Assembly: GCA_038049695.1 (NCBI GenBank)
Contig: CP142457.1
Location: 21,590,501 to 21,654,500 of the forward strand
Reading direction: 5' to 3'
Origin: Cinnamomum chago
Taxonomy: Eukaryota > Streptophyta > Magnoliopsida > Laurales > Lauraceae
DNA length: 64,000 bases
The translations under genes and the position numbers were made by a program. Shown in pieces: positions 5,793 to 44,125 of the stretch. Position 1 is the first letter of the stretch. Each line of letters begins with the position of its first letter. The notes beneath the pieces were generated by a model. It ran no database searches and had not been told where the DNA came from. It was given only the letters and a program-made list of their open reading frames with translations.

Positions 5793-5816
5793 AAAAAGTG
5801 CCCAACGGCTAGTCCT

Positions 5817-5946: not shown

Positions 5947-6355
5947 GCGACACTGCCGGGCCACCCCCCTTTTGACAAAAATTCCAATTTTTGCACATTT
6001 GAAGGTATTTCTTTGGGAGGATTTTTTGGGCCACTAAATCAAGCTAGAAAACATGTTTTAAATCATTCTAAGATGTTTAAAAACATGAAACACACAAAGC
6101 CTAAAAAGATTCAAAACTTTAAAACCAAAGGCTAGCTTGATTTCTAAAACTTTTTCCAAAAACAAATGCATCCAAGTTTTAAAAGCAAATCATGCATAAA
6201 TCAAAACTTTTACAAATCTTAAAAGTAATGCATGAATAAAACAAGATTTCAAGTTTATTTAAAACAATGCAAGTGTGTAAATCAAATGATGCTTGCATGA
6301 TAATGCATCCATCAAATTGCAATCTATAAAATCCCTAACACCTGAAACATGTCTC

Positions 6356-17646: not shown

Positions 17647-19396
17647 TGAAAGTCCACGAGGATCCTAACCCTAGAGGGGGGGGGGGTGAATAGGGTGAGC
17701 TACAATTGTGACCAATTTAAACCAATTTTAGTTTCTTAAACAAAACTAGTCACATGTGATGAATGATCAATCAATATGCGGAAGCTAAACAAAATCAATC
17801 ACCACATAGCAATCACCACAACACAATATTTATAGTGGTTCGGCCAACGTGCCTACATCCACTACCGGCTTGTGATCCAATCACCCCACCGGATTTCCAC
17901 TATTTATGCTTTTTCAAAGGCTAAGCAATAACCTCTACAATGTTGCTTTTCAAAGGCTAAACAACAACCTTACAAGATGCTTTTCTTAGGCTAAGCAATA
18001 ACCTTACAATATGCTTTTCTTAGGCTAAGCAATAACCTTATACAATGCTTTTCTTAGGCTAAGCAATAACCTTTACAAATAAAGCTTTCTCTAAGAAAGT
18101 GTCTTTACAAAAGATCGCTCTAAGAGATTACAATTTAAGCTCATATGAAATTGCCTCTTGACTAGGCTAATATGGAAGTTTAATACAAATAACAAACATA
18201 CACTCAATTAAGTTAAAGTGTGTGCACAAGTGTATGAATGCTCTACTTCAATCTATTTTAACAATGAAGCTCTTAAATGAATGCATGATGCATTTTAAAA
18301 TCAAAGCTTATAAAAAGATGATTGAAGAGAAAAATACTAATCACATGAAAGATTCACACAACTTGAAGAAATGATCTAAAACATGTTGTATGAATATAAA
18401 AGTCTAAGAACACATGTGATTTAGGTGAGAGTGATTGCAAACCATTCTAATATACCAATGAAGATAATGAGTTTGCAAAACAACTCTTGAAATCATGCAT
18501 AAGTGAAAAACAAAGATTTAAGCATGCATGGATTTCATTTTAATGAAAATCAAAATACAAGTAAAGTGTACCTTTTTAAGAACTCATGTATTTGATTTCC
18601 AAATGGCCCCCTAGCCTTTCCAACTTCTTCCCCTTTCTTTGGCTCCAAAATGCTCTCAAAGGTTCATGGTTCAAGCCTTGAAAAAGGTTGGAAAAGAATG
18701 GACTTTATAGCCAAAAAGTTGCCAACGGCTAGTTCTCGGTCAACCGGCAAAGAGGTCTCGGTCGACCGAGAAAGCACAACGGATAGATTTCTGACCGTTG
18801 GGGCTACAGAACAGGATTCTGCAGAAATGACCTGCAGTTGTCTCGGTCGACCGAGACCTGTGTCTCGGTCGACCGGCGACACTGCCGGGACACCCCCCTT
18901 TTTGCAAAAAATGCAACTTTTGCCATTTCAAAGGTATTTCTTTGGGGGACCTTTGGGCCACTAAATCAAGCTTAAATAACATGTTTTAAGACATTCTAAG
19001 ATGTTTAAACACATGGAAAACACAAAGCCTAATATGATTTGAAACTTTGAACCAAAGGCTAGCTTGATTTGAAAAACTCCTTTTTCCAAAAACAATGCAT
19101 ACAAAAGTGATTCTTAAAGAGATGAATGTATGCAAAGCTTAAACCTAAATTCTCAAGATGATTTGCAAAATATAATGCACAAGGAATTTGGTTTTCAAAA
19201 GAGTTTTGGGTTCTAAACTCAATGCATCTAAGTTTATGACCAAAACATGCATAAACTAAAAACTTTTCCAAATCTAAAAACCAATGCATGTATACAACTA
19301 GATTTCAAGAAATTTTAAATCAATTCATGAGTGTGAATTCAAATGATGCCAATATGCAAATGCATCCATCAAATTGCAAATACAAAATTCCTAACA
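17647..19396 (-). repeat. HR-1 3' LTR (1750 bp)
   Basis: TGAAAGTCC at 17647 to CCTAACA at 19396. It matches the 5' LTR almost base for base. It includes an 11-G tract, five short tandem units of the GGCTAAGCAATAACCT type (17908-18075), nested inverted repeats (for example CTTCAATC/GATTGAAG and AATCACATG/CATGTGATT, 18250-18420), a TATA box (minus strand, about 18701-18712) and the palindrome cluster about 18738-18876. One of the four palindromes has become CGGTCAACCG here. Confidence 0.92.
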
Positions 19397-19819
19397 ATCT
19401 CCCCCTTTGCAATTTGATGGCAACTTACCTATCATTGAAATTACACACTTAGTCTTTAGCTCCCCCTAAGCTTGACAAGTCTTGAAATCTTCTTGGATGC
19501 TTCTTCTCTTAGCTTGGGCTCTTGGGCTTCAATCTTCAATCTTCTTGATGCTTGGAGCTTGATCATTCTTCAAGCTATCTCTTCTTCTTTCCTCTCTTTA
19601 TCCAAGCATCTCCTTTAGCTCCAAGCTTTCTTTCTTCTAATTGCTCTCCCCCTCTGACCATGCCTCTCTCTTGCTTTGGCAAGATAAGCATTCACTCCTT
19701 GAAAGCTTTCTCCCCCTTTGATGGATAGGAGATCTTCGAGTACTTGAACTCTCGAACTCTCTCCCCCTTTGAAGAGTAGGATATCTTTGAGTCACACTTG
19801 AACTCTCTCTCCCCCTTTG
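19397..19819 (-). promoter_or_regulatory. Polypurine tract plus four similar purine tracts
   Basis: Directly beside the 3' LTR the sense strand reads GCAAAGGGGGAGAT, the expected primer for plus-strand synthesis. Near-identical tracts (CAAAGGGGGAGA, one with CAGAGGGGGAGAG) recur at 19644-19656, 19709-19720, 19757-19771 and 19805-19819. HR-2 and HR-3 keep the same series. Only the LTR-proximal tract is needed; the others may act as extra plus-strand start sites or may be inert repeats. Confidence 0.75.
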
Positions 19820-20047
19820 ACATTAAATTGCAAAGGTACCTACACACATGAGACAAGAAGAATACCTTTAGTAGCACCTGTTAACAAATGAAATAAAAAA
19901 TGAAGTTCATAACAGGTTATCATGTATGGAAGTTAGCTCTAAGGGCTCAAGGGCAATCCAAGGGTGAATTTGATCACAACTAATACTTCCTATGAAGGTT
20001 TACACTCCCCCTCAATCCATTCTCTTCTTTTGTCAAGCTTTTGACAA

Positions 20048-21796
20048 GGTATAACTATTAGATGCAAGAAGGAGATGGTTTAACCAAATGAGGGTCAACT
20101 TCAAGGAAAGAATTAGATTCATTTAACTATGAGGCTCATATGATCAAATTACCAAAAGAGAGCAAGGTCTAGTGAGAGAAGCAATCATGGATACCAATTG
20201 AAATAAACATATCAATTGAGATTAAAGGATATGACTATTAACATAATCACTCTAAAATGGATTCAAGAATGTTACTTATTAGGAAAAATCCAAAATAGAG
20301 CTATCCATGATGCAATGGGGTTTACTCAAACATAGCATCAATCAATATAACTTATGAAAATCATATGCTATGTAAGGTTTTGAACTCATTTCATTCAATC
20401 AATAAATATGACTATTAAAGTGCAAGATGAGTGAAATGAATTCCAAGCATGAAGCCAACCTCAACTAATAACCAACCAATATTATTAACACATAAACATG
20501 GTGGTCATGAGATATACCTATATGAGCAAGAGAGGTGGCAAACATGAACATTATGATGCTAATGGTGTGTGACATGGAACAATCATATTACTTATCAAGT
20601 TCAATCCAATGCACACAAGGTTTATCACATTCACAAGAAATCAAATCAATCATAAAATTATACCAAATGAAACCAATTGACTTTGACAACATGATAAAGG
20701 GCAAGAATGTGACAAAAATTCCATCAAGCACCATAAATGCATATTCATCACTTTTAAGGATATAACTATTGAGCATAGTGATGAACAAGGCAAATTGCAA
20801 TGCAAAAGGATATTACTTGGTAAGGCATGCAATTTTCAAAGTGTCAAAATCATATGAATTCAACACTAAGATATCCATCAAACAAGAGATATAACTATGA
20901 AATACAAGGAATGGATTTCAAAGAGGTTCATATGATTAAGAACACTACTATGAAGTTGAAACATGTATAAGGATGACACCAAGAAAATCTACATGAATCA
21001 ACATCATAACCATCCATAAAGATATGACTATAAGGCATAGAGGATGGATTTGGGTTCTAGTATGGTTTCTACAAATAAAACTAAGATCACAACCATACAT
21101 GGAACCAAATGTCATTTGCATATAAAAAGAATGTAAATAAACAAGCAAGGATGCAAACAACAAACATTTCCATTTCTAAGATAATGAAACCAAAAGAAAA
21201 GGAAATGAAAACATGGAACATGCTTTGATGAATATGACTAATGATGTTATAGAGCATTTCCATTCATACAATCTTCAAATCATTTTAATACACAAAATCC
21301 AACAATGAGCATAAAAAGAATGATTTTGAAGATCAATTATCAACAATGTATTTTAAAAGATATAACTTAATTGAAACACATACAAGTTGATTTTTCAAAC
21401 AATGTTCTCCATATAAAAGTATAACTTAGGAATCCATGGAAAAACTTGAATTGATTCAAATCATTTGTTCAAAAAATATTACTATGACATCTACACAAAT
21501 GATTCAACAACAATTGATCATGAATGAATTAGCTATGAAAGCCTTTAAAAACACAATCAATTGATCATGTAAAGAAATGCAATGCAAGACATATGTGTGC
21601 AAAAAGCAAATCAAACATGATGAAATTATAATCAAAAGATTTTGAAAACCATGAAGTGTAACTTAAAATGGTGCATGAAAACAAAATCAAATGATCATAA
21701 AGAAGCAATGCATTTTAATAAATGTAACTAAAAGAAACAAAATGCAAATGCAACATGACCAACAAAATGATTTAACTATTAAAGAATAGGTTGGTC
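20048..21796. repeat. Array of about 20 stem-loops with a shared loop motif
   Basis: Stems (left arm/right arm) include: 20250-20263/20287-20300; CATAGCAT 20331-20338/20365-20372; 20382-20396/20429-20443; TTCATCACT 20744-20752/20777-20785; 20792-20803/20825-20835; AATCATATGAA 20848-20858/20927-20937; CCATCC 21010-21015/21042-21047; GTATGGTT 21060-21067/21091-21098; TTTGCAT 21115-21121/21151-21157; CATTTCC 21165-21171/21201-21207; 21213-21224/21253-21263; 21273-21284/21319-21331; TCAATT 21333-21338/21369-21374; 21383-21412/21436-21448; AATCATTTGT 21459-21468/21495-21504; GATTTTG 21638-21644/21682-21688; GCATTTT 21710-21716/21739-21745; GACCAAC 21757-21763/21790-21796. Many loops hold ATATAACTAT or a close variant (ATATGACTAT, ATATTACTT, GTATAACTT, TTTAACTATT). 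No ORF is present. The region follows the gag stop in the element's sense. Confidence 0.88.
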
Positions 21797-21812
21797 AATG
21801 AGGTCCAAGACC

Positions 21813-23369
21813 CTAAGGTTTGACTAGGTAAATGACTTTAGGAATCCACCTAAGGTCTTGGGAGGGTTGAACTTTGAGGTCTAGTTTGGATTTCTCACCA
21901 ACTATAGGAGATTTGACTTGATAAATCTTCAATTTAAACTTATCACCATGATATTTAGATTTTACTAAATTTGGCTTAGAATGGTGATTAGTCTTTTGAT
22001 GTTGGTGAGCTTGTTTCTTAGGGGATTGCTTCACTTTTCTTTTCTTCTTATTTTCTCCCTTTTCTTGACTTTTGAATTTTAAATTTAACTTAGCAACTTT
22101 ATTCAAAAGTTCTTTCATAGGTTGATATAAGGGAGATAGATTAAGAAGCTTTTTGTTCTTAGATTCTTTCAAGCTTGGTTTAACTTGTTTAAGCTTTTTA
22201 GAATCTATTTTAGGAGACTCCATTTTAAAGGATTTAACTTGTTTAGTCTTTTTGGAGTTTTCCTTGATTTTTAGTGTCTTACCCTTCAAGTTTGATTTTA
22301 CTTTCTTTGGTTCAAAGATGGGATTAGACACATGGCTTCTTTTTCTTAGTTTGCACTCAAATGTAAAATGTCCTTCAATGCCACAATAATTACATTTAGA
22401 CTTGGGCAAAGAAGTGTGAGTGCTAGAGAATGAGGACTCACCTTTCACAAAAGTGTTGGTGAATTTAGGGTTATAAGACATATTCCTATTAAATCCAATA
22501 CCCGTCCTATCTCCATGATGTTTACCCAATTTAAATAATTTTTCAAGTCTATCTTCACTTTGGGTAAACTTGCACTCATACTTTTGTTTATAGGTTTCAA
22601 GTTGAGTGACTTTGGTTATAAGGATTGAATTTTCATTTTTAACTTTTGAAAGTTCATTTTCAAGTTCCTTATATTTGATTAGCTCTTCATTGGCAAGTTG
22701 TAATTTATGTTTAAGGTCATTAACAACATTAGTTCCAAGCTTTTGAGTTTTTAACTTACTTTTGATCAACTTGGCTTCTAAGTTGTTAAAGTCTTTATCT
22801 TGTCTTTTAATTGTATCTCTTAGGTTTAAATTTTCATTTTTAAACTCATCACAATTTATCTTAATCTCATTTAATTCATCTTGAGCATTAGATAAATTTT
22901 CCTTAGAGATAGTCAATTTAGATTCAAGATTGTTAAAGTCTTTATCTTGCCTTTGTAATTGATCTCTTAGTTTTAGATTTTCCTTATTGACATTTTCATA
23001 ATCCATCTTTAATTCTTTTAGTTCATCTTGAATGTTAGATAGATTATTTAAAGAGATCATGAACTTAGACTCTACACAATTTATTACTTCTTCTTTCTCT
23101 CTAAGTTCATCTTTTGAAGAAGCTAATTCTTTGCTTAGATTTTTAGATTCTTCTCTTAAACTTTTGTTTTTCTTCTCAAGCTTTAAGGATACTTCATATA
23201 ATTCTTCAAAGGCTTGTTGAAGATCTTCTTCATTATATTCTTCTTCTTCATTTAATTTACATTGAGATTCTTTTAATTGAATGTTTGAATCTCTAATAGA
23301 TGGAAGAATGGTAAGTCTAGGAGAATCTACAAAATCTAGCATAGTGGAGTCCATACTAATGATTTTCAA
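21813..23369 (-). CDS. HR-1 Gag-like protein: coiled coil plus CCHC zinc knuckle (518 aa)
   Basis: An intact 518-codon frame, the only one in the element. The N-terminal about 40 residues (MDSTMLDFVDSPRLTILPSI) are followed by a very long heptad-rich region (about 45-275), with repeats such as NLESKLTISKENLSNAQDEL and KNENLNLRDTIKRQDKDFNN, expected to form a coiled coil. A canonical zinc knuckle CNYCGIEGHFTFEC (CX2CX4HX4C) lies at about residues 326-339. The C-terminal part is Lys-rich and basic (KKKRKVKQSPKKQ) and ends with LRWIPK. The zinc knuckle and its place after the primer site identify it as Gag-like, binding element RNA; no standard capsid domain is recognisable. The WIPK segment resembles the stretch just before protease in some copia polyproteins, which hints at a copia relative. 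The start could alternatively be the Met at codon 6. Confidence 0.8.
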   Translation of the reverse strand: MKIISMDSTMLDFVDSPRLTILPSIRDSNIQLKESQCKLNEEEEYNEEDLQQAFEELYEVSLKLEKKNKSLREESKNLSKELASSKDELREKEEVINCVESKFMISLNNLSNIQDELKELKMDYENVNKENLKLRDQLQRQDKDFNNLESKLTISKENLSNAQDELNEIKINCDEFKNENLNLRDTIKRQDKDFNNLEAKLIKSKLKTQKLGTNVVNDLKHKLQLANEELIKYKELENELSKVKNENSILITKVTQLETYKQKYECKFTQSEDRLEKLFKLGKHHGDRTGIGFNRNMSYNPKFTNTFVKGESSFSSTHTSLPKSKCNYCGIEGHFTFECKLRKRSHVSNPIFEPKKVKSNLKGKTLKIKENSKKTKQVKSFKMESPKIDSKKLKQVKPSLKESKNKKLLNLSPLYQPMKELLNKVAKLNLKFKSQEKGENKKKRKVKQSPKKQAHQHQKTNHHSKPNLVKSKYHGDKFKLKIYQVKSPIVGEKSKLDLKVQPSQDLRWIPKVIYLVKP

Positions 23370-23456
23370 ATAAGCAAAACTCTAGGGTTTTAACTCTAGG
23401 TTTTTACACCTAATCAAGAGTTCCAAACACTTGATCCTAAGGGATTAGAGCACTTG
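23370..23456 (-). other. HR-1 leader between primer site and Gag
   Basis: Short untranslated link. It contains no other ORF. The same sequence with few changes occurs in HR-2 (40860-40943). Confidence 0.7.
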
Positions 23457-23468
23457 GCTCTGATACCA
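23457..23468 (-). other. HR-1 primer-binding site (iMet tRNA)
   Basis: Sense strand reads TGGTATCAGAGC, complementary to the 3' end of plant initiator-Met tRNA, two bases from the LTR end (spacer 23469-23470). It proves element polarity. Confidence 0.9.
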
Positions 23469-24520
23469 ATTGAAAGTCCACGAGGATCCTAACCCTAGAG
23501 GGGGGGGTGAATAGGGTGAGCTACAATTGTGACCAATTTAAACCAATTTTAGTTTCTTAAACAAAACTAGTCACATGTGATGAATGATCAATCAATATGC
23601 GGAAGCTAAACAAAATCAATCACCACATAGCAATCACCACAACACAATATTTATAGTGGTTCGGCCAACGTGCCTACATCCACTACCGGCTTGTGATCCA
23701 ATCACCCCACCGGATTTCCACTATTTATGCTTTTTCAAAGGCTAAGCAATAACCTCTACAATGTTGCTTTTCAAAGGCTAAACAACAACCTTACAAGATG
23801 CTTTTCTTAGGCTAAGCAATAACCTTACAATATGCTTTTCTTAGGCTAAGCAATAACCTTATACAATGCTTTTCTTAGGCTAAGCAATAACCTTTACAAA
23901 TAAAGCTTTCTCTAAGAAAGTGTCTTTACAAAAGATCACTCTAAGAGATTACAATTTAAGCTCATATGAAATTGCCTCTTGACTAGGCTAATATGGAAGT
24001 TTAATACAAATAACAAACATACACTCAATTAAGTTAAAGTGTGTGCACAAGTGTATGAATGCTCTACTTCAATCTATTTTAACAATGAAGCTCTTAAATG
24101 AATGCATGATGCATTTTAAAATCAAAGCTTATAAAAAGATGATTGAAGAGAAAAATACTAATCACATGAAAGATTCACACAACTTGAAGAAATGATCTAA
24201 AACATGTTGTATGAATATAAAAGTCTAAGAACACATGTGATTTAGGTGAGAGTGATTGCAAACCATTCTAATATACCAATGAAGATAATGAGTTTGCAAA
24301 ACAACTCTTGAAATCATGCATAAGTGAAAAACAAAGATTTAAGCATGCATGGATTTCATTTTAATGAAAATCAAAATACAAGTAAAGTGTACCTTTTTAA
24401 GAACTCATGTATTTGATTTCCAAATGGCCCCCTAGCCTTTCCAACTTCTTCCCCTTTCTTTGGCTCCAAAATGCTCTCAAAGGTTCATGGTTCAAGCCTT
24501 GAAAAAGGTTGGAAAAGAAT

Positions 24521-24532
24521 GGACTTTATAGC
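24521..24532 (-). promoter_or_regulatory. HR-1 TATA box
   Basis: Minus strand GCTATAAAGTCC. It is followed, in the sense direction, by about 1 kb of LTR leader before the primer site. The upstream palindrome cluster starts 26 bp away. Confidence 0.75.
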
Positions 24533-24557
24533 CAAAAAGTTGCCAACGGCTAGTTCT

Positions 24558-24696
24558 CGGTCGACCGGCAAAGAGGTCTCGGTCGACCGAGAAAGCACAA
24601 CGGATAGATTTCTGACCGTTGGGGCTACAGAACAGGATTCTGCAGAAATGACCTGCAGTTGTCTCGGTCGACCGAGACCTGTGTCTCGGTCGACCG
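24558..24696 (-). promoter_or_regulatory. Four CGGTCGACCG palindromes upstream of the HR-1 TATA box
   Basis: Perfect CGGTCGACCG at 24558-24567, 24580-24589, 24665-24674 and 24687-24696, arranged as two pairs 22 bp apart. The same two-pair layout with slightly different gaps occurs in the 2.2 kb LTR type. Likely factor-binding sites; the factor is unknown. Confidence 0.7.
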
Positions 24697-25217
24697 GCGA
24701 CACTGCCGGGACACCCCCCTTTTTGCAAAAAATGCAACTTTTGCCATTTCAAAGGTATTTCTTTGGGGGACCTTTGGGCCACTAAATCAAGCTTAAATAA
24801 CATGTTTTAAGACATTCTAAGATGTTTAAACACATGGAAAACACAAAGCCTAATATGATTTGAAACTTTGAACCAAAGGCTAGCTTGATTTGAAAAACTC
24901 CTTTTTCCAAAAACAATGCATACAAAAGTGATTCTTAAAGAGATGAATGTATGCAAAGCTTAAACCTAAATTCTCAAGATGATTTGCAAAATATAATGCA
25001 CAAGGAATTTGGTTTTCAAAAGAGTTTTGGGTTCTAAACTCAATGCATCTAAGTTTATGACCAAAACATGCATAAACTAAAAACTTTTCCAAATCTAAAA
25101 ACCAATGCATGTATACAACTAGATTTCAAGAAATTTTAAATCAATTCATGAGTGTGAATTCAAATGATGCCAATATGCAAATGCATCCATCAAATTGCAA
25201 ATACAAAATTCCTAACA

Positions 25218-31723: not shown

Positions 31724-33944
31724 TGTAAGTCCATGGAGATCCGAACCCTAGAGGGGGGTGAATAGGGTGAGCTCCAATTATGACCAATTTTAACAAATTT
31801 AACTTCTTTAAAACAAACTAGTCATATGTGATGATTTATCATACAAGATGCGGAAGCTAACAAAAGAATCACCACAAAGCAATCACCATCACACAAGGAT
31901 TTATAGTGGTTCGGCCTCAATGCCTACATCCACTACCGGCTTGTGAACCAACACCCCACCGGATTTCCACTATTTATGCTTTTCAATAGGCTAAGCAATA
32001 ACCTTTACACTATGCTTTCCAAGGCTAAGCAATAACCTTACATTGATGTTTTTCAAGGCTTAACATCAACCTATACATTATGCTTTTATAGGCTAAGCAA
32101 TAACCTCTTCAACCACAAGGTTGATTATCTCACTAAGATAGTGTCTAACATACACTTGATGGAGATTCTATTAAGCTCATTACAATGCCTCTTAAATAGG
32201 CGGATATGGAAGTGAAAAACTAATACACACTCACACTATGGATGCAAAGATGAAAGTACATGAAGTGTGTGTGTGTGTGGTCCTCAATCATTTAGAAAAT
32301 GAAAGCTCATAAATGTATGCCTAAGGCTTTTGAAAGTTTTAGCTCAAAAACATTTATGATTGAGGAAGTAATGCAATCACATGTTAAAAGTAACAACTTG
32401 TTAATGATATCAAAGTTACACAAGTTGTATGAAATGGATTAGCTCTAAACATGTGATGCATAGGGATGTCAATCAAATCAACATGAAGCTCAAAACATAA
32501 AAATAGATTTGATTGAAAAGAGGGGACAAATCATATGTAATTATAAGGACAACTTGAAAATGATTTACCAATCAAAGTGATGCAAGTTGTGAAACTTTAA
32601 AACAATAATACACATATGATTTGTAATGATGTTGGATCCAAAACATAAGATACATTTGAGAGAGATTTTCTTATGATGGAAAAACAACAACCAATGATTC
32701 AACAAAGTATATGAATCATGTTACATATTTCATTAACATGATCTACTTAGATTTACCAAAGATAAAGTACTACTTTGATGAATCAATGGTGATGTATCCA
32801 AAACAATAGATCTATTCAAAATATAACACATGCTAAGGATACAACACATCATAGGTTAACATGTTACTAAGATTTACCAATGATAAAACAAAACATGAAA
32901 ACATATGATTTGTAAAGAAGTTGAATCCAAAACATAAGTTAGTTTTGAAAGAGATGTTCTTATGATGGAAAACAACAACCAAAGATTCAACCAAGTATAT
33001 GGATCATGTTACATATGATTTCAAAGATTTTTCCATTAACATGATCTACTTAGATTTACCAAAGTTAAGTACTACTTGGATTGAATCATATGGTGTTGTA
33101 TCCAAAACAATAAATCAACTCAAAACATAACACATGTTAAGGACACAACACAAACATAGTTTAACATGCTAGAAATGATTTACCAAAAATAAAACAAAAG
33201 CATGAAAACATATGATTAAGAAAGGAAGAGCCTACTTGGTGGTTTAACTTCATTAATCCAAGCTTTAGCTTTCCTAATCATCCCCTTCATCCCTTGGTTC
33301 TTTTCCCTTTTGATATGCCTCAATACCTCTCAAGGAGGGGCTTAAAATTCCCAACTTTTGGCAAGGGAAAGAACTCATATTTATAGCAAAAAGTTGCCAA
33401 CGGCTAGTCCTCGGTCGACCGGCAAAGAGGTCTCGGTCGATCGGGAAGGCACAACGGTCAGATTTCTGACCGTTGGAGGTTTCAGTTCAGAACTGCAGAT
33501 TTTACCTCCAGTTGTCTCGGTAGACCGAGACCTGTATCTCGGTCGACCGGCGACACTGCCGGGACTCACCCCCTTTTTGCAAAAAATGCAACTTTTGCAT
33601 ATTTGAAGGTTTTTCTTTGGGGGACCTTTTGGCCACTAAATCAAGCTTGAAAAACATGTTTTAAAGATTCTAATGGTTTTTAAAACATGAACATAAAAAG
33701 CCTAAAAAGATTCAAAACTTTTAAAACAAAGGCTTCCTTGATTTCTTGAAAACTCTTTTCTAAAACAAATGCATCCAAGATTGAAACCAAAACATGCATA
33801 AATCAATACTTTTACAAATCTTAAAAGCAATGCATGAATAAAACAAGATTTCAAGTTTATTTAAAACCAATGCAAGTGTGTAAATCAAATGATGCTAGAA
33901 TGATTAATGCATCCATCAAATTGCAATCTATAAAGACCCTAACA
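31724..33944 (-). repeat. HR-3 3' LTR (2221 bp)
   Basis: TGTAAGTCC at 31724 to CCCTAACA at 33944. It is of the 2.2 kb type with the internal duplication. G-run of 6. One of the four palindromes reads CGGTCGATCG and another CGGTAGACCG. The TATA box on the minus strand lies near 33378-33389. Confidence 0.9.
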
Positions 33945-35117
33945 ATCTCCCCCTTTGCAATTTGATGGCAACACACTCACCACTGAAATAAACACACTAA
34001 GTCTTCAGCTCCCCCTCAGCTGGACAAGGCTTGAAATCTTCTTGGATGCTTCTCTTAGCTTGAGCTCTTTTCTTCATTCTTCATGATGCTTGGTGCTTGA
34101 TCATTCTTCAATCTTTCTTTCTTTAGCCAAGCATATTCTTTAGCTCCAAGCTTTGTTTCTTCTATTTGCTCTCCCCCTTTGACCATGCTTCTTTCTCCTC
34201 TTGAGAACTTGAAAGCTTTCTCCCCCTTTGATGGATAGGAGATCTTCGAGTACTTGAACTCTCGAACTCTCTCCCCCTTTGCCATTAAATTGCAAAGGTA
34301 CTTACACATATGAAATAAGAAAAATACCTTGAGTAGCACCTGTTAACAAATGAAATCGAAAATGAAATACATAACAGGCTATCATGTGAGGTAGTAGTCT
34401 CTAAGGGCTCAAAGGCAATCCAAGGGTGAATTTGATCAAAACTAATACTTCTTATGAAGGTTTACACTCCCCCTCAATCCATTCTCTCCTTTTGTCAAAC
34501 TTTTGACAAAGATTTAACTATTAGGTAAAAGAAGAAGATGGTTTAACCAAGTGAGGGTCAACTTCAAAGAAGGGATTAGATTCATTTAACTATAGAGCAC
34601 ATTATGATCAAATTACCAAAAGAGAGCTAGGTCTAAAGAGAAAAGCAATCATGGATATCAATTGGACAAACAAAGAGTACCAATTGAGATTTAAGGATAT
34701 GACTATTAAATCAATCACTCTAAAATGGATTTAAAAATATACCTATTAGGAAAAATCCAAATTAGAGCTATCCATAAAGCAATGGGGTTTATTAATCATA
34801 GCATCAATTAATTTAACTAAGAAAAACATATGCTATGAAAGTCTTGAACTCATTTCATTCAATCAAAAAATATTACTTATTGAAGTGCAAGATGAGTGAA
34901 ATGAAATTCAAGCATGAAGCCAACCTCAACTAATAACCAACCAATATTATGAACACATAAACATGGTGGTCATGAGATATACCTATAAGAGCAAGGGAGG
35001 TGGCAACATGAACATTATGATGCTAATGGTGTGTGACATGGAACAAATATATAACTATCAAGTTCAATCCAATGCACACAAGGTTTATCACATTCACAAG
35101 ACATCAAATCAATCAAA
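33945..35117 (-). other. HR-3 internal region, LTR-proximal half
   Basis: Four purine tracts of the GGGGGAGA type (33945-33957, near 34170, 34220 and 34271) and then the first part of the hairpin array, for example GAACTCATTTCATTC with GAGTGAAATGAAATTC (34846-34910) around an AATATTACTTATT loop. No ORF beyond fragments. Interrupted at 35118-35122 (TSD CATTA) by HR-2. Confidence 0.75.
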
Positions 35118-35122
35118 CATTA

Positions 35123-36875
35123 TGAAAGTCCACGAGGATCCTAACCCTAGAGGGGGGGGGGGTGAATAGGGTGAGCTACAACTATGACTAATTATGACCA
35201 ATTTTAACTTCTTAGCATAAACTAGTCACATGTGATGATTAACAAACAAAATGCGGAAGCTAATACAAATACAATCACCACATAGCATGCACCACAACAC
35301 CAATGTTTATAGTGGTTCGGCCAACGTGCCTACATCCACTACCGGCTTGTGTCTCCAACACCCCACCGGATTCCACTAAGTATGCTTTTTACTAGGCTAA
35401 GCAATAACCCTTACAATGTGCTTTTCTAGGCTAAGCAATAACCTTACAAGATGCTTTTCAAAGGCTAAGCAATAACCTTACAAGATGCTTTTCAAAGGCT
35501 AAGCAATAACCTTACAAGTTGCTTTTCTTAGGCTTAGCAATAACCTTTACAAATATAGTTTTCTCAAAGAAAGTGTCTTAACAAAAGAACACTCTAAGAG
35601 ATTACAATTTAAGCTCAATGGAATTGCCTCTTGAATAGGCTAATATGAAAGTGAAAACTAAACTCACACAAACACTCTATGAATGCAAAGATGTATGCTT
35701 ATGAGGTGTGTGTGTGTGTGATGACTTCAATCAAGTTTAAAAAGAAAGCTTAATCAAATATATGCTTAAAGCATTTGAAAGTTTAAGACACACAAAAGTT
35801 TTGATTGAAGTTTGATGCAAATCACATGAATAATAAACAACTTGTTAATGACATGAAATTCAAAGAATCACAAGTTGTATGAAAAATAAAGTTTAAGAAA
35901 GCATGTGATTTGATAAGAGTGATTGCAAACTAATCTAATTTACCAAGAAAGATATTGAGCTTGCAAATCAACTCTTTAAGGACTTGAAATCATGCATAAA
36001 TGAAAATACAAAGGATTTGAACATGCATGAATTTCATTTGTATGGAAATCAAAATAACTTAGAAGATGTACCTTTTAAAAACTCATGAGTTTGATTTCCA
36101 AATTGCCCTCTAGCCTTTCCAACTTCTTCCCCTTTCTTTGGCTCCAAAATGCTCTCAAAGGTTCATAGTTCAAGCCTTGAAAAAGGTTGGAAATGAATGG
36201 ACTTTATAGCCAAAAAGTTGCCAACGGCTAGTTCTCGGTCGACCGGCAAGGTGGTCTCGGTCGACCGAGAAAGCACAACGGTCATATTTCTGACCGTTGG
36301 GGCTTCAGTTCAAAAAAACAGTCCATTTGCCCTGCAGTGTTCTCGGTCGACCGAGACCCAGGTCTCGGTCGACCGGCGACACTGCCGGGACAACCCAAAA
36401 ATTCCAACTTTTGCATTTTGAAGATTTTCTTTGTGGAATTTTGTGGGTCACTAAACCAAGCTTAAAAACATGTTTTAAAACATTTAAAAACATGAAACAC
36501 ACAAAGCCTAAAATGATTCAAAGGTTTAAAACCAAAGGCAAGCTTGATTAGTAAAAACTCTTTTCAAATCAAATTGCATACAAAACTGATTCTAAAGGTG
36601 CTGAATGTATGCAAAGCTCAAACCTAAATTCACAAGAAGATTTTCCAAATCTAATGCACAAGGAATTTGGTTTTCAAAAGAGTTTTGGGTTCTAAAACCA
36701 ATGCATCCAAGTTTAGAACCAAACCATGCATAAAACACAAACTTTTCCAAATCTAAAAACCAATGCATGTATAAAGCTAGATTTCAAGATATTTTAAATC
36801 AATGCATGTGTGTGAATTCAAATGATGCCAATATGCAAATGCATCCACCAAATTGCAAAAACAAAATACCTAACA
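35123..36875 (-). repeat. HR-2 3' LTR (1753 bp)
   Basis: TGAAAGTCC to CCTAACA. Four GTCGAC palindromes at about 36236-36378, TATA box on the minus strand near 36199-36212, five tandem units of GGCTAAGCAATAACC type at 35390-35550, and a TG microsatellite near 35707. Confidence 0.92.
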
Positions 36876-37292
36876 ATCTCCCCCTTTGCAATTTGATGGC
36901 AACTTACTCATCATTGAAATTACACACTCTGTCTTCAGCTCCCCCTCAGCTGGACAAGTCTTGAAATCTTCTTCTTGGATGCTCCTTCTCTTAGCTTGGG
37001 CTCTTGGGCTCTTTTCTTCAATCTTCTTGATGCTTGGTGCTTGATCATTCTTCAAGCTTTCTTATCATCTTCCTCTCTATGGCCAAGCATCTTCTTTAGC
37101 TCCAAGCTTTCTTTCTTCTATTTGCTCTCCCCCTTTGACCATGCCTCTCTCTTCCTCTTGAGAACTTGAAGGCTTTCTCCCCCTTTGATGGATAGGAGAT
37201 CTTCGAGTACTTGAACTCTCGAACTCTCTCCCCCTTTGAAGAGTAGGAGATCTTTGAGTCACACTTGAACTCTCTCTCCCCCTTTGACATTA
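36876..37292 (-). promoter_or_regulatory. HR-2 polypurine tract and repeated purine tracts
   Basis: The LTR-adjacent GGGGGAGAT is followed by similar tracts near 37125, 37175, 37227 and 37276. Position and order equal HR-1. The LTR-proximal copy is the functional candidate. Confidence 0.7.
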
Positions 37293-37499
37293 AATTGCAA
37301 AGGTACCTACACACATGAGACAAGAAGAATACCTTTAGTAGCACCTGTTAACAAATGTAATCGAAAATGAAATACATAACAGGCTATCATGTATGTAAGT
37401 TAACTCTAAGGGCTCATTAGCATTCCAAGGGTGAATTTGATCAAAACTAATTCTTCCTATGAAGGTTTACACTCCCCCTCAATCCATTCTCTTCTTTTG

Positions 37500-39284
37500 T
37501 CAAGCTTTTGACAAGATATAACTATTAGATTCAAGAAGTAGATGGTTTAACCAAGTGAGGGTTAACTTCAAGGAAAGGATTAGATTCATTTAACTATAAA
37601 GCTCATATGATCAAATTACCAAAAGAGAGCTAGGTCTAATTGGAGAAGCAATCATGGATATCAATTGAAACAAACATATCAATTGAGATTAAAGGATATG
37701 ACTATTAACATAATCACTCTAAAATGGATTTAAAAGTATAACTATTATGAGAAATCCAAATTAGAGCTATCCATGATGCAATAGGGTTTACTCAAACATA
37801 GCATCAATCAATATAACTTATGAAAATCATATGCTATGTAAGTTTTGAAATCATTTCATTCAAACAATAAATATGACTATTAATGTGCAAGAATGAGTGA
37901 AATGAAATTCAATCATGAAGCCAACCTCAACTAATAACCAACCAATATTATGAACATATAAACATGGTGGTCATGATATATACCTATATGAGCAAAAGAG
38001 GTGGCAACATGAGCATTATGATGCTAATGGTGTGAGACATGGAATGATCATATTACTTATCAAGTTTAGTCCAATGCACACAAGGTCTATCACATACACA
38101 AGATAAGATATCAATTGGATATGAAATCAATGGAAAGTTATACCAAATGAAACCAATTGAATGTGATAACATGAGTAAAAGCAAGGATGTGATAAACTAC
38201 CATCAAGCATCATAAATGCATATTCATCACTTTTAATGATATTCCTAAAGAGCATAGTGATGAACAAGGCAAATTGCAATGCAAAAGGATAAAGCTTTGT
38301 AATGCATGCAATTTCCAAAGTGTCTAGATCATATGAATTCAACACTAAGAAATCCATCAAACAAGAGATATAACTATGAAATACAAGAAATGGATTTCAA
38401 ATAGTTTCATATGATTAAGAACACTACTTATGAAGTTGAAACATGTATAAGGATGACACCAAGAGAATCTACATGAATCAACATCATAACCATCCAAAAA
38501 GAATATGACTAGAAAGCATATAGGATGGATTTGGGTTCTAGTATGGTTTCTACAAATGTTACAAGTTCACAACCATACATGGAACCAATAGTCATTTGCA
38601 TATGAAAAGAATGTAAACACATAAGCTAGAGATGCAAACAACATACATTTCCATTTCTAAAGATAATGAAACCAAAAGAAAAAGGAAATGAGAATAATGG
38701 AACATGCTTAGATGAATATAACTAATGAGATTAAAAAGCATTTCCATTCAAAACAATCTTCAAATCATTTTGAAAAACAAAATCCAACAATGAGCATAAA
38801 GGAATGATTTTGAAGATCAATTATCAACATTGTATTTGAAAAGATATAACTTCATTAAAACACATACAAGTTGATTTTTCAAAACAATGATTTTCCATAT
38901 AAAGGTATACCTTATAAATCCATGGAAAAACTTGAATTGATTCAAATCATTTGATTTACAAAAAGGATCTAACTAAGACATCCATCAAATGATCTAACAA
39001 CAATTGATCATGACAAATTAGCTATGAAAGCTTTTAACATCACAATCAATTAATCATGTAGAAATGCAATGCAAAACATATGAGTGCAACAAGCAAATCA
39101 AACATGATGAGATTATAATCAAAAGATTTTGAAAACCATGATATGTAACTAGAATGGTGCATGAAGACAAAATCAATTGATCATAAAGAAGCAATGCATT
39201 TTATGAAATGTAACTAAGAAAGAACCAAAATGCAAATGCAACATGACCAACAAAAGGATTTAACTATTAAGGAATAGGTTGGTC
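37500..39284. repeat. HR-2 stem-loop array
   Basis: Collinear with HR-1. Examples: CATAGCAT 37797-37804 with ATGCTATG 37831-37838; TTCATCACT 38223-38231 with AGTGATGAA 38256-38264; ATCATTTGAT 38946-38955 with ATCAAATGAT 38984-38993; GATTTTG with CAAAATC (about 39125-39174); GACCAAC 39245-39251 with GTTGGTC 39278-39284. Loop motifs again are of the ATATAACTAT/ATATGACTA kind. Confidence 0.85.
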
Positions 39285-39299
39285 AAGGTGGTCAAGACC

Positions 39300-40859
39300 C
39301 TAAGGTTTGTCTAAGTATCTAACTTTAGGAATCCACCTAAGGTCTTGGGAGGGTTGAACTTTGAGGTCTATTTTGGACTTCTCACCAACTATAGGAGATT
39401 TAACTTGATAAATTTTCAATTTGAACTTATCACCATGATATTTAGATTTTACTAAATTTGGCTTAGAATGGTGATTAGTCTTTTGATGTTGGTGAGTTTT
39501 CTTCTTAGTGGATTGTTTCACTTTTCTTTTCTTCTTATTTTCTCCCTTTCTTTGACTTTTGAAATTTAGATTTAACTTAGTAAATTTCTTCAAAAGTTCT
39601 TTCATGTTTTGACTTAAGGGAGGTAGGTTGAGAAGCTTTTTGTTAATAGATTCTTTTAAACTTGGTTTGACTTGTTTAACCTTTTTAGAATCTATTTTTG
39701 GAGACTCCTTGTTAATTGGTTTAACTTGTTTAAGCTTTATGGAGTCTTCCTTTGTTTTTAGTGTCTTACCCTTCAAGTTTGATTTTACTTTCTTGAGTTC
39801 AAAGATGGGTTTAGACACATGGCTTCTTTTCCTTAGTTTGCACTCAAACCTAAAATGTCCTTCAATGCCACAAAAATTACATTTGGTTTTGGGCAAAGGA
39901 GGAAGAGTGCTAGAGAATGAGGACTCACCTTTCACAAAAGTGTTGGTGAATTTAGGGTCATATGTCATATTCCTATTAAAACCAAGACCCGTCCTATCTC
40001 CATGAGATTTACCCAATTTGAATAATTTTTCAAGTTTCTCTTCACTTTGGGTAAACTTGCACTCATACTTTTGTTTATTGTTTTCAAGTTGAGTGACTTT
40101 GGTTATAAGGATTGAATTTTTATTTTTAACTTTTGAAAGTTCATATTCAATTTCCTTATATTTGCTTAGCTCTTCATTGGCAAGTTTTAATTCAAGCTTT
40201 AGTTCATCAATAACATTAGATCCAAGTTCTTTTGTTTTTAACTTACTTTTGATCAACTTGGATTCTAAGTTGTCAATGTCTACATCTTGTCTTTTAATTG
40301 TATCTCTTAGGTTTAAATTTTCATTTTTAAGCTCATCACAATTTATCTTAATCTCATTTAATTCATTTTGAGCATTAGATAAATTTTCCTTAGAGATAGT
40401 CAATTTTGATTCAAGATTGTTAGAGTCTTTATCTTGCCTTTTTATTTGATCTCTTAGTTTTAGATTTTCCTTATTGACATTTTCATAACCCATCTTTAAT
40501 TCTTTTAGTTCATCTTGAATGTTGGATAGGTTATTTAAAGAGATCATGAACTTAGAGTCTAGACATTTTATTACTTCTTCTTTCTCTCTAAGTTCATCTT
40601 TTGAAGAGGCTAGATCTTTGGTTAGATTCATAGATTCTTCTCTTAAGCTTTTGTTTCTTTTATCAAGCTTTGTAGATAATGTATATAATTCATTGTAGGC
40701 TTGTTGAAGATCATCTTCATCATACTCATTTTCTTCCTCTTTTGAGTCAAATTGATATTCATTTAATTGATGGTTTGAATCTCTAATAGAAGGAAGAGTG
40801 AGAGGTCTAGAAGAATCTACAAAGTCTAGCCTAGTGGAGTCCATTCTAATGATTTTCAA
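39300..40859 (-). CDS. HR-2 Gag-like protein: coiled coil plus CCHC zinc knuckle (519 aa)
   Basis: Intact homologue of the HR-1 protein: same N-terminus (MDSTRLDFVDS), long heptad-rich middle (KNENLNLRDTIKRQDVDIDN, NLESKLTISKENLSNAQNEL), zinc knuckle CNFCGIEGHFRFEC at about residue 327, basic C-terminus ending RWIPK then RYLDKP. The two proteins differ at many residues yet both frames are open, which suggests the protein was under selection before these insertions. No protease or capsid domain is recognised. It is probably an RNA-binding, self-assembling Gag. Confidence 0.8.
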   Translation of the reverse strand: MKIIRMDSTRLDFVDSSRPLTLPSIRDSNHQLNEYQFDSKEEENEYDEDDLQQAYNELYTLSTKLDKRNKSLREESMNLTKDLASSKDELREKEEVIKCLDSKFMISLNNLSNIQDELKELKMGYENVNKENLKLRDQIKRQDKDSNNLESKLTISKENLSNAQNELNEIKINCDELKNENLNLRDTIKRQDVDIDNLESKLIKSKLKTKELGSNVIDELKLELKLANEELSKYKEIEYELSKVKNKNSILITKVTQLENNKQKYECKFTQSEEKLEKLFKLGKSHGDRTGLGFNRNMTYDPKFTNTFVKGESSFSSTLPPLPKTKCNFCGIEGHFRFECKLRKRSHVSKPIFELKKVKSNLKGKTLKTKEDSIKLKQVKPINKESPKIDSKKVKQVKPSLKESINKKLLNLPPLSQNMKELLKKFTKLNLNFKSQRKGENKKKRKVKQSTKKKTHQHQKTNHHSKPNLVKSKYHGDKFKLKIYQVKSPIVGEKSKIDLKVQPSQDLRWIPKVRYLDKP

Positions 40860-40943
40860 ATAAGCACAACTCTAGGGTTTTAACTCTAGGTTTTTACACC
40901 TAATCAAGAGTTCCAAACACTTGATCCTAATAAAGAGCACGAG

Positions 40944-40955
40944 GCTCTGATACCA
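40944..40955 (-). other. HR-2 primer-binding site (iMet tRNA)
   Basis: Sense strand TGGTATCAGAGC, two bases from the 5' LTR end at 40958. Confidence 0.9.
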
Positions 40956-40957
40956 AT

Positions 40958-42711
40958 TGAAAGTCCACGAGGATCCTAACCCTAGAGGGGGGGGGGTGAA
41001 TAGGGTGAGCTACAACTATGACTAATTATGACCAATTTTAACTTCTTAGCATAAACTAGTCACATGTGATGATTAACAAACAAAATGCGGAAGCTAATAC
41101 AAATACAATCACCACATAGCATGCACCACAACACCAATGTTTATAGTGGTTCGGCCAACGTGCCTACATCCACTACCGGCTTGTGTCTCCAACACCCCAC
41201 CGGATTCCACTAAGTATGCTTTTTACTAGGCTAAGCAATAACCCTTACAATGTGCTTTTCTAGGCTAAGCAATAACCTTACAAGATGCTTTTCAAAGGCT
41301 AAGCAATAACCTTACAAGATGCTTTTCAAAGGCTAAGCAATAACCTTACAAGTTGCTTTTCTTAGGCTTAGCAATAACCTTTACAAATATAGTTTTCTCA
41401 AAGAAAGTGTCTTAACAAAAGAACACTCTAAGAGATTACAATTTAAGCTCAATGGAATTGCCTCTTGAATAGGCTAATATGAAAGTGAAAACTAAACTCA
41501 CACAAACACTCTATGAATGCAAAGATGTATGCTTATGAGGTGTGTGTGTGTGTGTGATGACTTCAATCAAGTTTAAAAAGAAAGCTTAATCAAATATATG
41601 CTTAAAGCATTTGAAAGTTTAAGACACACAAAAGTTTTGATTGAAGTTTGATGCAAATCACATGAATAATAAACAACTTGTTAATGACATGAAATTCAAA
41701 GAATCACAAGTTGTATGAAAAATAAAGTTTAAGAAAGCATGTGATTTGATAAGAGTGATTGCAAACTAATCTAATTTACCAAGAAAGATATTGAGCTTGC
41801 AAATCAACTCTTTAAGGACTTGAAATCATGCATAAATGAAAATACAAAGGATTTGAACATGCATGAATTTCATTTGTATGGAAATCAAAATAACTTAGAA
41901 GATGTACCTTTTAAAAACTCATGAGTTTGATTTCCAAATTGCCCTCTAGCCTTTCCAACTTCTTCCCCTTTCTTTGGCTCCAAAATGCTCTCAAAGGTTC
42001 ATAGTTCAAGCCTTGAAAAAGGTTGGAAATGAATGGACTTTATAGCCAAAAAGTTGCCAACGGCTAGTTCTCGGTCGACCGGCAAGGTGGTCTCGGTCGA
42101 CCGAGAAAGCACAACGGTCATATTTCTGACCGTTGGGGCTTCAGTTCAAAAAAACAGTCCATTTGCCCTGCAGTGTTCTCGGTCGACCGAGACCCAGGTC
42201 TCGGTCGACCGGCGACACTGCCGGGACAACCCAAAAATTCCAACTTTTGCATTTTGAAGATTTTCTTTGTGGAATTTTGTGGGTCACTAAACCAAGCTTA
42301 AAAACATGTTTTAAAACATTTAAAAACATGAAACACACAAAGCCTAAAATGATTCAAAGGTTTAAAACCAAAGGCAAGCTTGATTAGTAAAAACTCTTTT
42401 CAAATCAAATTGCATACAAAACTGATTCTAAAGGTGCTGAATGTATGCAAAGCTCAAACCTAAATTCACAAGAAGATTTTCCAAATCTAATGCACAAGGA
42501 ATTTGGTTTTCAAAAGAGTTTTGGGTTCTAAAACCAATGCATCCAAGTTTAGAACCAAACCATGCATAAAACACAAACTTTTCCAAATCTAAAAACCAAT
42601 GCATGTATAAAGCTAGATTTCAAGATATTTTAAATCAATGCATGTGTGTGAATTCAAATGATGCCAATATGCAAATGCATCCACCAAATTGCAAAAACAA
42701 AATACCTAACA
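40958..42711 (-). repeat. HR-2 5' LTR (1754 bp)
   Basis: Identical to the 3' LTR in my reading apart from lengths of the G-run and the TG microsatellite. TATA box on the minus strand near 42035-42048 with four GTCGAC palindromes just right of it (42072-42214). Confidence 0.93.
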
Positions 42712-42716
42712 CATTA

Positions 42717-43840
42717 TACCAATTGAATCCAATTGAATTTGATAACATGATAAAGAGCAAGAGTGTGACAAAATTCCATCAAGCATCATAAATGCATATT
42801 CATCACTTTTGAAGATATAACTATTGAGCATAGTGATGAACAAGATAAATTGCAATGCAAAAAGATATTACTTGGTAATGCATGCAATTTCCAAAGTGTC
42901 AAAATCATATGAATTCAACATTTAAGATATCCATCAAACATATAGAAATATGAGGAATAGATTTCAAAGAGTTTCATATGATTAAGAACACTACTATGAA
43001 GTTGAAACATGTATAAAGAAGATATCACTTAGAGAAAATACATGAATCAACATCATAACCATCCAAAAGGATATGACTAGAATGGCATAGAGGATGGATT
43101 TGAGTTCTAGTATGGTTTCAATAAAAAACACAACCATACATAGAACAATTTGACATTTGCATAGAGAGGATTAATCAACACTCAAGATCTAACTCATACC
43201 AATCATCAAAAGAATATAACTATTGTAAACACAAGAAGGTATGAAGTTAAAAGATCAATCTATCATGTAACATCTCCACTCTTAGCAAATGCACTAAGCT
43301 TACAAAGCAATGGAAAAAGATATGAGGTTTATACCAAATGAACTTAGCACATAAAATCACATATGTACATAAAAAGCTCAAATACAAGATTTTACTATAA
43401 AGCACATAAACACTCATTAATTTGCATTAATGAAACTATATACCAAAATGGCACAAACATGCAAATCAATGAAACCATATCCAACCATGCAATGTAAGAC
43501 AACAAAATCAATTTGCATAAAGAATGTCACTAAATGAGCAAAGATGCAAATTGTTTGTAAAAAATATTTCCTTCCAAATGATATAATCATAGTTAGGCAC
43601 AAGGAAATAAATTCAAGGAAAATGCTTCTATAAATATAACTAATAAAGCTTAGAACATTTTCCAAAGTTGCAATCAAAGGATTTTGAAAACCATGAGATA
43701 TAACTTTAAAAGTTCATGAAGACAAAATCAAATGATCACAAAGAAACATTGCATTTTAAAAGATGTGACTATAAAGAAACAAAATGCAAATGTATCAAGA
43801 CCAACAAATAGATATAACTAAAAAGAATAGGTTGGTCTAG
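42717..43840 (-). repeat. HR-3 internal region, gag-proximal half: stem-loop array
   Basis: The continuation of the HR-3 array after HR-2. Examples: TTCATCACT with AGTGATGAA (42800-42840); AACCATCC with GGATGG (43060-43098); TATGGTT with AACCATA (43113-43140); GCATTTT with AAAATGC (43750-43787); AGACCAAC 43798-43805 with GTTGGTCT 43831-43838, loop ATATAACTA. Some HR-1 hairpins are absent. It has no gene. Confidence 0.78.
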
Positions 43841-44011
43841 CGGGATCAAGGCCTTAAGGTTACTCAAATAGTCTACCTTTGAAAATTCACCTAAGGTCTT
43901 GAAAAGGTTGTCCATGAGAGAACACTTTGAGGACTCACCAACTCTAGAAGATATACCAGGAAAAGACTTAGAGTGGTGCAATGAGGCTAGGGAAATTTCA
44001 ATTTCAAACAT
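43841..44011 (-). pseudogene. HR-3 gag remnant
   Basis: The first residues and the last about 40 residues (VGESSKCSLMDNLFKTLGEF) recall the ends of the HR-1/HR-2 protein; nearly the whole coiled coil and zinc knuckle are missing. HR-3 is thus a deletion derivative with no coding function. The alignment of the C-terminal part is weak, so the exact breakpoint is uncertain. Confidence 0.5.
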
Positions 44012-44112
44012 AGTGGAAATCTTTAAAAAGATATGCAATAAATCACAACACTAGGGTTCAAATCTAGTAAGGATCAACTCCGGGTTGTTAAGCCCTAAAA
44101 TGGAGTAACCCT

Positions 44113-44123
44113 CTCTGATACCA
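44113..44123 (-). other. HR-3 primer-binding site (iMet tRNA)
   Basis: Sense strand TGGTATCAGAG, two bases from the LTR edge at 44126. Confidence 0.85.
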
Positions 44124-44125
44124 CT

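Follow-up and report, generated by a model that had tools for sequence, protein, structure and literature searches.

The window analysed here, a stretch of 64,000 nucleotides from Cinnamomum chago, raises the question of why the interior of a retrotransposon should carry a long series of hairpins that share a word in their loops on stems unrelated to one another, and of what might read such an array. Three complete LTR elements, HR-1, HR-2, and HR-3, lie in the window, all on the minus strand and each with a 5-bp target duplication. HR-1 (17647..25217; target duplication CTCTC, read from the LTR ends and flanks) is a complete non-autonomous element of Sirevirus type. In sense order, it comprises a 5' LTR (23471..25217, from comparison of the LTR pair), a primer binding site (PBS) of Sirevirus type, TATCAGAGC (23457..23465; motif from the available text of PMC2829016), a 513-aa ORF (21813..23354), the hairpin array with the loop word WARTNAYA (20048..21812), delineated by word counts, flank pairing, and unpaired probability, multiple PPTs with seven copies of AGGGGGAG (19399..20012), the last of which stands immediately before the AT/TG of the 3' LTR, and the 3' LTR itself (17647..19396), with four CGG-CCG palindromes and a TATA box, all of them on the minus strand.

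HR-2 (35123..42711, minus strand; target duplication CATTA), with an array of 13 words at 37501..39296 on the same strand, is nested in the outer element HR-3 (31724..46345, minus strand; target duplication GATAT), which it interrupts. Its insertion falls within the hairpin array of HR-3 (31724-46345), of which the first part in sense order (42714..43845, minus strand) holds 11 words and is partly unalignable with HR-1, and the second part (34490..35113, minus strand) holds 3 words, with plausible stems and a word number too small for a permutation test. Since the LTR pairs of HR-1, HR-2, and HR-3 are 99.66%, 99.83%, and 99.64% identical, respectively, all three elements are recent. An ORF search of the elements found no pol ORF in any of them. 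The interior of HR-3 without HR-2 amounts to only ~2.6 kb, and neither of its pieces contains an M-started sense ORF of more than 84 aa; the array has nevertheless been kept. The preliminary description of the HR-1 array as belonging to an RNA with no other coding content thus fails for HR-1, whose 513-aa ORF the same description called gag, but suits HR-3.

The word [AT]A[AG]TNA[TC]A occurs 19 times on the sense strand of HR-1 between 20048 and 21812, against a mean of 1.95 and a maximum of 6 in shuffled sequence, the expectation for the word being drawn from 60 dinucleotide shuffles; the shared loop motif that had been noticed by eye is thereby borne out. There are 13 words in the HR-2 array (2.25 expected, shuffle maximum 6) and 11 in the first part of the HR-3 array (1.37 expected, shuffle maximum 5), and the second part, with 3 words against 0.92 expected, is not significant alone because the shuffle maximum is 4. 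The word is unenriched in gag (2 vs 2.95), in the PPT region (0 vs 0.42), and in the HR-1 LTR (2 vs 1.6), and the HR-3 LTR contains 6 (2.37 expected, shuffle maximum 6). When gapped 7-mers are counted without prior choice, AGT.ATA ranks first, with 13 occurrences vs 0.42. The further claim that the word is enriched in loops also holds: in HR-1, the mean unpaired probability of its AGT form is 0.62 (n=16), compared with 0.42 for all 8-mers, a level reached by 10 of 20,000 random sets, and the corresponding values for the first part of HR-3 are 0.65 and 0.41 (n=10; 25 of 20,000 random sets). All word-hairpins at or below -12 kcal/mol in the three window arrays (34/34) stand on the sense strand of the element, and the other 58.5 kb, taken on both strands, contain 9.

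Stem formation was assessed with the 35 nt preceding and the 35 nt following each word, comparing the pairing of a word's own flanks with that of flanks swapped between words. Own flanks pair at a mean of -14.4 kcal/mol in HR-1, compared with -8.9 (s.d. 0.66) for swapped flanks, at -14.2 vs -8.4 kcal/mol in HR-2, and at -15.6 vs -8.7 kcal/mol in the first part of HR-3, and 0 of 20,000 permutations reach the own-flank value in each of these arrays; in the second part of HR-3, with only 3 words, 3,355 of 20,000 do. Across copies, own-flank pairing has z-scores of -4.6 to -8.7 in 37/37 HR-1-type arrays and of -4.4 to -6.5 in 15/15 HR-3-type arrays (13 with 0 of 2,000 permutations and 2 with 2 of 2,000). 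Random position sets as good as the words numbered 0 of 150 in HR-1 and 0 of 150 in the first part of HR-3; the mean z of random positions in arrays is itself -1.2 to -1.8, which indicates some pairing throughout the array. Because own flanks outpair swapped ones, the words sit between matching arms and the arms of different hairpins mismatch; the stems are real and mutually unrelated, as the preliminary description had proposed. At ~43163-43672, HR-3 shows no alignment with HR-1, yet hairpins with the word are present.

The number and quality of the hairpins had been put too high. Instead of about 20 stem-loops, 17 of the 19 HR-1 words (16 by another count, in which the last word has no flank) have a flank duplex at or below -10 kcal/mol, and the stricter combination of an AGT word with -12 kcal/mol leaves 13 hairpins in HR-1, 9 in HR-2, and 12 in HR-3, and 5-13 (median 9) in the 37 HR-1-type copies. 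Many stems are broken by internal loops, contrary to their portrayal as mostly perfect. Perfect stems are moderately enriched in the HR-1 array over 100 shuffles, with 15 vs 8.3 of at least 7 bp and 9 vs 3.2 of at least 8 bp, but the shuffle maxima are 14 and 9, respectively. Similarly, the array folds better than shuffled sequence (z -7.1 for the whole array with pairs at most 90 nt apart), but gag reaches -5.9 under the same limit, and in 150-nt windows, the mean z of the array, -1.2, is no better than the -1.5 of gag. Perfect-stem counts and window z-scores alone were therefore rejected as a criterion for the array, which they do not separate from gag. Since the z-scores of gag are similar, the special feature of the array is the pairing centred on the word and not overall foldedness.

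Individual hairpins of HR-1, all on the minus strand and given here in sense order, illustrate this plan. The stem GACCAAC/GTTGGTC (21757..21796) encloses a loop with TAGTTAAA, a variant outside the strict word; it is followed by TGCATTTT/AAAATGCA with the loop word TAGTTACA (21709..21746) and by the 10-bp stem AATCATTTGT/ACAAATGATT with TAGTAATA (21459..21504). Further along the array, AAATTGCA/TGCAATTT carries AAGTAATA (20792..20835), the 9-bp stem TTCATCACT/AGTGATGAA carries TAGTTATA (20744..20785), TCATTTCA/TGAAATGA carries TAGTCATA (20386..20439), and ACATAGCAT/ATGCTATGT carries AAGTTATA (20330..20373).

The genome searched for further copies comprises 1.06 Gb. A first look yielded 6,196 array candidates, of which 40 were scored, and the PPT/LTR junction word AGGGGGAGATTGTTAGG, common to HR-1, HR-2, and HR-3, has 5,902 occurrences, a count of words and not of confirmed HR copies. 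Array matches recur every ~5.2-5.6 kb at C8:44075433-44094073, C3:89927606-89975417, and C6:27051601-27081485, as in head-to-tail tandem copies. For the comparison of HR-1-type copies, 32 downstream stretches were taken from 40 ORF matches, excluding the copy that lies in the window and seven neighbours in tandem, and 30 further loci came from the array-candidate search; nine of the 70 loci were dropped for short coverage (L001-L008, mostly repeating other loci, and L024). The remaining 61 loci together with HR-1 and HR-2 made 63, which were thinned at 98.5% identity to 37, a step that removed HR-2 itself, and the pairwise identity of the 37 copies is 88.6-98.3%. Three extra copies were used in the tree test only. 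The HR-3 family of 15 consists of HR-3 and 14 places hand-picked for spread.

Variation was mapped onto the structure of HR-1 alone, because an alifold structure favours conserved columns; an estimate from the alifold structure, with paired columns ~4x more conserved, was set aside on the same ground. Among the 37 HR-1-type copies, stems, with a minor-base frequency of 0.027, are 3.6x less variable than loops outside the word, with 0.097, and the values for the word itself and for the remaining positions are 0.057 and 0.053, respectively; the HR-3 family of 15 gives 0.013 for stems, 0.061 for loops, 0.052 for the word, and 0.032 outside. Within the 16 AGT words of HR-1, the frequency falls to 0.004 at the A of position 2 and 0.003 at the G of position 3, and amounts to 0.019 at the first base, 0.064 at T, 0.189 at N, 0.103 at Y, and 0.033 and 0.028 at the last two A, with mostly 0.07-0.14 in the nearby loop and lower values again in the stems. 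The HR-3 family of 15 has the same, noisier shape (A 0.013, G 0.020, N 0.153). The core is less invariant when three non-AGT words are included, with 0.062 shared changes per site vs 0.380 in loops and 0.105 in stems; internal changes on the tree amount to 0.219 per site in the core, 0.873 in loops, and 0.211 in stems. Since the words were picked by match to HR-1 or HR-3, their apparent variation is somewhat lowered. Of 576 hairpin-copy pairs of HR-1 type, 460 still have the word, 102 have lost it, and in 14 it is deleted; for HR-3 type, 121 of 140 pairs keep it and 19 have lost it. Thus, the loops are conserved, as had been stated, in the core of the word, but the rest of the loop is the fastest-changing part between copies of one hairpin.

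The sole ORF encodes 513 aa in HR-1 and 514 aa in HR-2. In the HR-1 product, one CCHC knuckle, which scores below the Pfam cut-off, and a basic tail accompany a long stretch predicted to form a coiled coil, and the HR-2 product likewise combines a coiled coil with a knuckle; long helices are predicted at residues 42-199 and 207-258, in a structure model that is otherwise unconfident (mean pLDDT 53.7, pTM 0.21, 4-row alignment). No capsid domain was detected with Pfam in any of 4 relatives; the protein search returned 2 relatives, and the viral contigs searched contained none. The dN/dS of the HR-1 ORF is 0.22-0.31 against six close copies, ranges over 0.16-0.31 in pairs that differ by more than a few changes, and rises to 0.51-0.67 against HR-2; judged by these ratios, the ORF is under purifying selection in close copies. 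The full frame is intact in 7/7 copies examined beside HR-1 and HR-2, which are among the best search matches and not a random sample. The ORF (21813-23354) also folds better than dinucleotide shuffles, with z -5.9 in sense and -5.2 in antisense. The ORF and the array of the same copy (L002-L008 with L009-L015) differ in their distance from HR-1, one example being an ORF dS of 0.066 alongside a nearly identical array. Because these distances disagree, HR lineages seem to exchange segments, and since array and ORF histories differ, gag dS is unusable as a neutral yardstick for the loops.

The gag-pol Sirevirus copy L085 of the same genome contains, in one frame, a knuckle, an acidic/coiled-coil-like stretch, GLGF..GESS, and two further knuckles; the alignment score between the HR protein and the L085 Gag matches the knuckle only, the remaining resemblance being by eye. 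In addition, seven 3' ends of gag-pol Sirevirus copies, of 2.3-2.7 kb each and forming one sub-group by their match ends, were hand-picked from 150 scored matches. The hairpin array is absent from the five of these seven that have a PPT/LTR junction (L086-L090), a small sample of one sub-group, three with one LTR start and two with another. The pol end is seen in four of the five and not in L090; beyond pol, L086 has a single word (-13.4 kcal/mol) and L087-L089 have no word; in L090, there is one weak word (-7.0). Of the other two, L092 has a pol end and PPTs with no junction and no word, and L091 has nothing recognisable. Since a long open frame, of 1,670 aa, is confined to the first gag-pol copy, those of the others being 376-983 aa, autonomous is used here as a type label and not as a statement of activity.

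The class of the HR elements was judged by the Sirevirus hallmarks listed by Bousios et al. 2010, which, in its available text, treats elements of this type as plant-specific (PMC2829016). The PPT AGGGGGAG followed by AT/TG at the 3' LTR is present with several upstream copies (7 in HR-1, 7 in HR-2, and 6 in HR-3). The LTR end CA, ATTGG, and the PBS TATCAGAGC are found at 23457-23470 in HR-1 and 40944-40957 in HR-2, and the PBS junction of HR-3, read by eye, is the variant AGTGG, TATCAGAGA. Every LTR of HR-1 and HR-2 contains four CGG-CCG boxes with a TATA box after them; the HR-3 LTRs contain three or four boxes and lack the exact TATA word used in the search. A poly-C tract close to the LTR end was read in the sequence of HR-1 and HR-2. 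A Gag-Pol with Sirevirus-clade RT is present in none of the three elements; because they have no pol ORF, HR-1, HR-2, and HR-3 are non-autonomous Sirevirus derivatives and not full members. An Rfam search of 17640-25230 gave no family above the gathering score and no match at all in the array; two chance-level matches (E 0.74) both fall in the HR-1 LTRs.

The LTRs have peculiarities of their own. A direct duplication of ~310-330 bp in the HR-3 LTR (32598-32910 and 32884-33217, 83.6% alike) is also present in LTR copies at 4129-6340 and 55356-57567. Downstream of the palindrome/TATA region (44126-45790 and 23471-24530), the LTRs contain short perfect hairpins with loops unlike each other; perfect hairpins of at least 8 bp number 10 in HR-3 and 4 in HR-1. 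The LTR word TTGGTAAAT, considered as a second loop array, occurs five times, and own and swapped flanks pair equally, leaving this candidate unsupported.

Our tentative best explanation is that the HR array may be a multi-site cis-acting RNA signal, read by a CCHC Gag-type protein and serving packaging in trans. In the 3' portion of its transcript, each copy would offer ~5-13 strong hairpins (13 in HR-1) together with weaker ones, with the core AGUNA(Y)A left unpaired in the large loop of every hairpin; the loop word would be recognised by an RNA-binding protein that is indifferent to stem sequence, and the many sites would jointly select and condense HR RNA. The likeliest reader would be a CCHC-knuckle Gag-type protein, i.e., the HR-1 ORF product and/or the Gag of an autonomous Sirevirus, the latter element supplying capsid and Pol. 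HR-3 would use the protein in trans, because it has no long ORF, has kept its array, and was recently mobile. Retroviral nucleocapsid knuckles bind unpaired G in loops, and one G kept constant in the loop core, recurring on a dozen or so stems of unconstrained sequence, would suit a loop-reading protein that gains from many sites. The combination sought in a multi-site packaging signal, several unrelated stems with a shared loop word, is found in the HR arrays, and by analogy with satellite tobacco necrosis virus, the array might recruit the CCHC protein and be carried into particles. A more specific form, which we consider doubtful, is a dense packaging array in which a loop-reading Gag-type protein recruits HR RNAs, with or without an ORF, via about a dozen stem-independent hairpins, and a capsid-less adaptor couples the parasite RNA to Sirevirus particles. 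Weak covariation, the G-U tests, the uneven shared-vs-singleton contrast of stems and loops, antisense folding, and the knuckle-only match to the gag-pol Sirevirus Gag count somewhat against the best explanation, as does the fact that no gag-pol partner sharing the HR LTR ends was identified.

The main rival is that a host RNA-binding protein, and not Gag, binds the array for RNA export, stability, translation, or localisation. The same anatomy fits such a protein, gag-pol Sirevirus copies manage without the array, and no long ORF is found in HR-3 itself; however, the array of HR-1 and HR-2 adjoins a conserved ORF with a knuckle of RNA-binding type, and we know of no host factor with this loop word. 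In our judgement, the host protein is an unlikely reader.

Both the packaging reading and its main rival place the array in RNA, where selection likely acts, given the single orientation of the word, its location in the element interior, and the larger number of shared G-U than A-C states. We consider RNA-level selection likely and not proven, because the covariation and G-U tests are weak or non-significant. Double Watson-Crick states number 12 in the pooled set vs 5-13 in slid controls, and the tight family has 9 pairs vs 4-9. G-U and A-C are nearly balanced among distinct states (26:23), in the alifold structure (51:48), and in the pooled set (42:35), and stand at 3:5 in the HR-3 family. 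In the HR-1 family, the ratio is 17:8 in states shared by at least 2 copies vs 9:15 in single copies (p 0.046), with p 0.058 for states in at least 3 copies; on the tree, it is 22:11 for internal vs 40:34 for terminal changes (p 0.29). These tests have little power, since the copies are 88.6-98.3% identical and seem to recombine. A constraint on DNA, with inverted repeats around a DNA-binding word, would agree with inverted repeats on both strands, with an antisense array that also folds better than shuffles at a z nearly as large as that of the sense strand, and with a G-U excess that is non-significant on the tree and absent in the HR-3 family. It nevertheless appears improbable, as the word is found within the element, downstream of the ORF, with a fixed orientation and a position in predicted loops, the HR-1 family has more G-U than A-C states among those shared, and the known Sirevirus DNA palindromes, in the available description (PMC2829016), have common stems, the opposite plan.

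Little credence is also given to an array without function, i.e., an old tandem hairpin family with arms kept alike by template switching and loops left to drift. Slow arms and fast loops are what it predicts, and the stem-vs-loop contrast between shared and singleton changes, with p 0.004 in the HR-1 family, fails to reach significance on the tree (p 0.07) and disappears in the HR-3 family, where the ratios are 0.31 and 0.35. On the other hand, matching hairpins of HR-1, HR-2, and HR-3 (words 21664, 39151, and 43706) have preserved internal loops, which arm correction should erase, the word core is nearly invariant within fast loops, and HR-3 carries the array without having the ORF. The preliminary preference for RNA recognition elements over tandem duplication is retained in that a recognition array best fits the unrelated stems, one orientation, and near-invariant core, but tandem duplication with long stem divergence could still have given rise to them. 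A structured decoy or small-RNA source, whose hairpins feed or blunt silencing, is hardly probable, for although small RNAs are drawn to the structured palindromic regions of maize Sireviruses according to the available text of PMC10760457, such a role does not require hairpins to share a loop word whose core hardly varies.

Sirevirus LTR palindromes and their small RNAs are already known, as far as the available texts go (PMC2829016; PMC10760457), and a literature search of partial coverage found no description of a retrotransposon with an array of hairpins that share a loop. What is new is the array; the HR element is otherwise a variant of known Sirevirus-type elements. To our knowledge, little has been established about how plant retrotransposons choose the RNA that they package, and even less about how non-autonomous families rise to high copy number; an array whose sites can be counted and whose loop word is defined would provide a direct handle on RNA packaging.

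Among known classes, TR-GAG elements are LTR elements with a Gag domain as the sole ORF. HR-1 and HR-2 resemble them in having LTRs that flank one Gag-type ORF; however, this ORF lacks a recognisable capsid part (the CCHC of HR-1 is below the Pfam cut-off, and 0/4 relatives have a capsid domain). LARD elements exceed 4 kb and have a long structured non-coding interior with no ORF. Named in the preliminary description as the nearest comparison, they find a partial counterpart in HR-3, in which LTRs flank a structured interior without a long ORF, but the HR elements are probably not generic LARDs, as Sirevirus hallmarks are present, and the interior of HR-3 without HR-2 is only ~2.6 kb, compared with >4 kb. 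Tandem hairpins with one loop word set the HR elements apart from both classes. With Sireviruses (Ty1/copia, Pseudoviridae), they share the PBS TATCAGAGC, clustered AGGGGGAG PPTs, the AT/TG junction, CGG-CCG palindromes in the LTR, and poly-C, and they differ in having no pol, no detected capsid domain, and a linker with a hairpin array, which the Sirevirus description in the available text of PMC2829016 does not include. The Sirevirus LTR palindromes, boxes of repeated motifs, are likewise inverted repeats in the same elements; however, they have a common stem and are located both in the LTR and upstream of the envelope-like gene, according to the same available text (PMC2829016), whereas in the HR array the stems differ and the loop is common. 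The closest likeness in plan is with satellite tobacco necrosis virus, whose RNA encodes only the coat protein and whose packaging hairpins, as described in the available part of PMC3593212, are read by the loop with indifference to stem sequence. In contrast to that virus, HR is a retroelement with its hairpins in a dense cluster beside the PPTs, known here from sequence alone.
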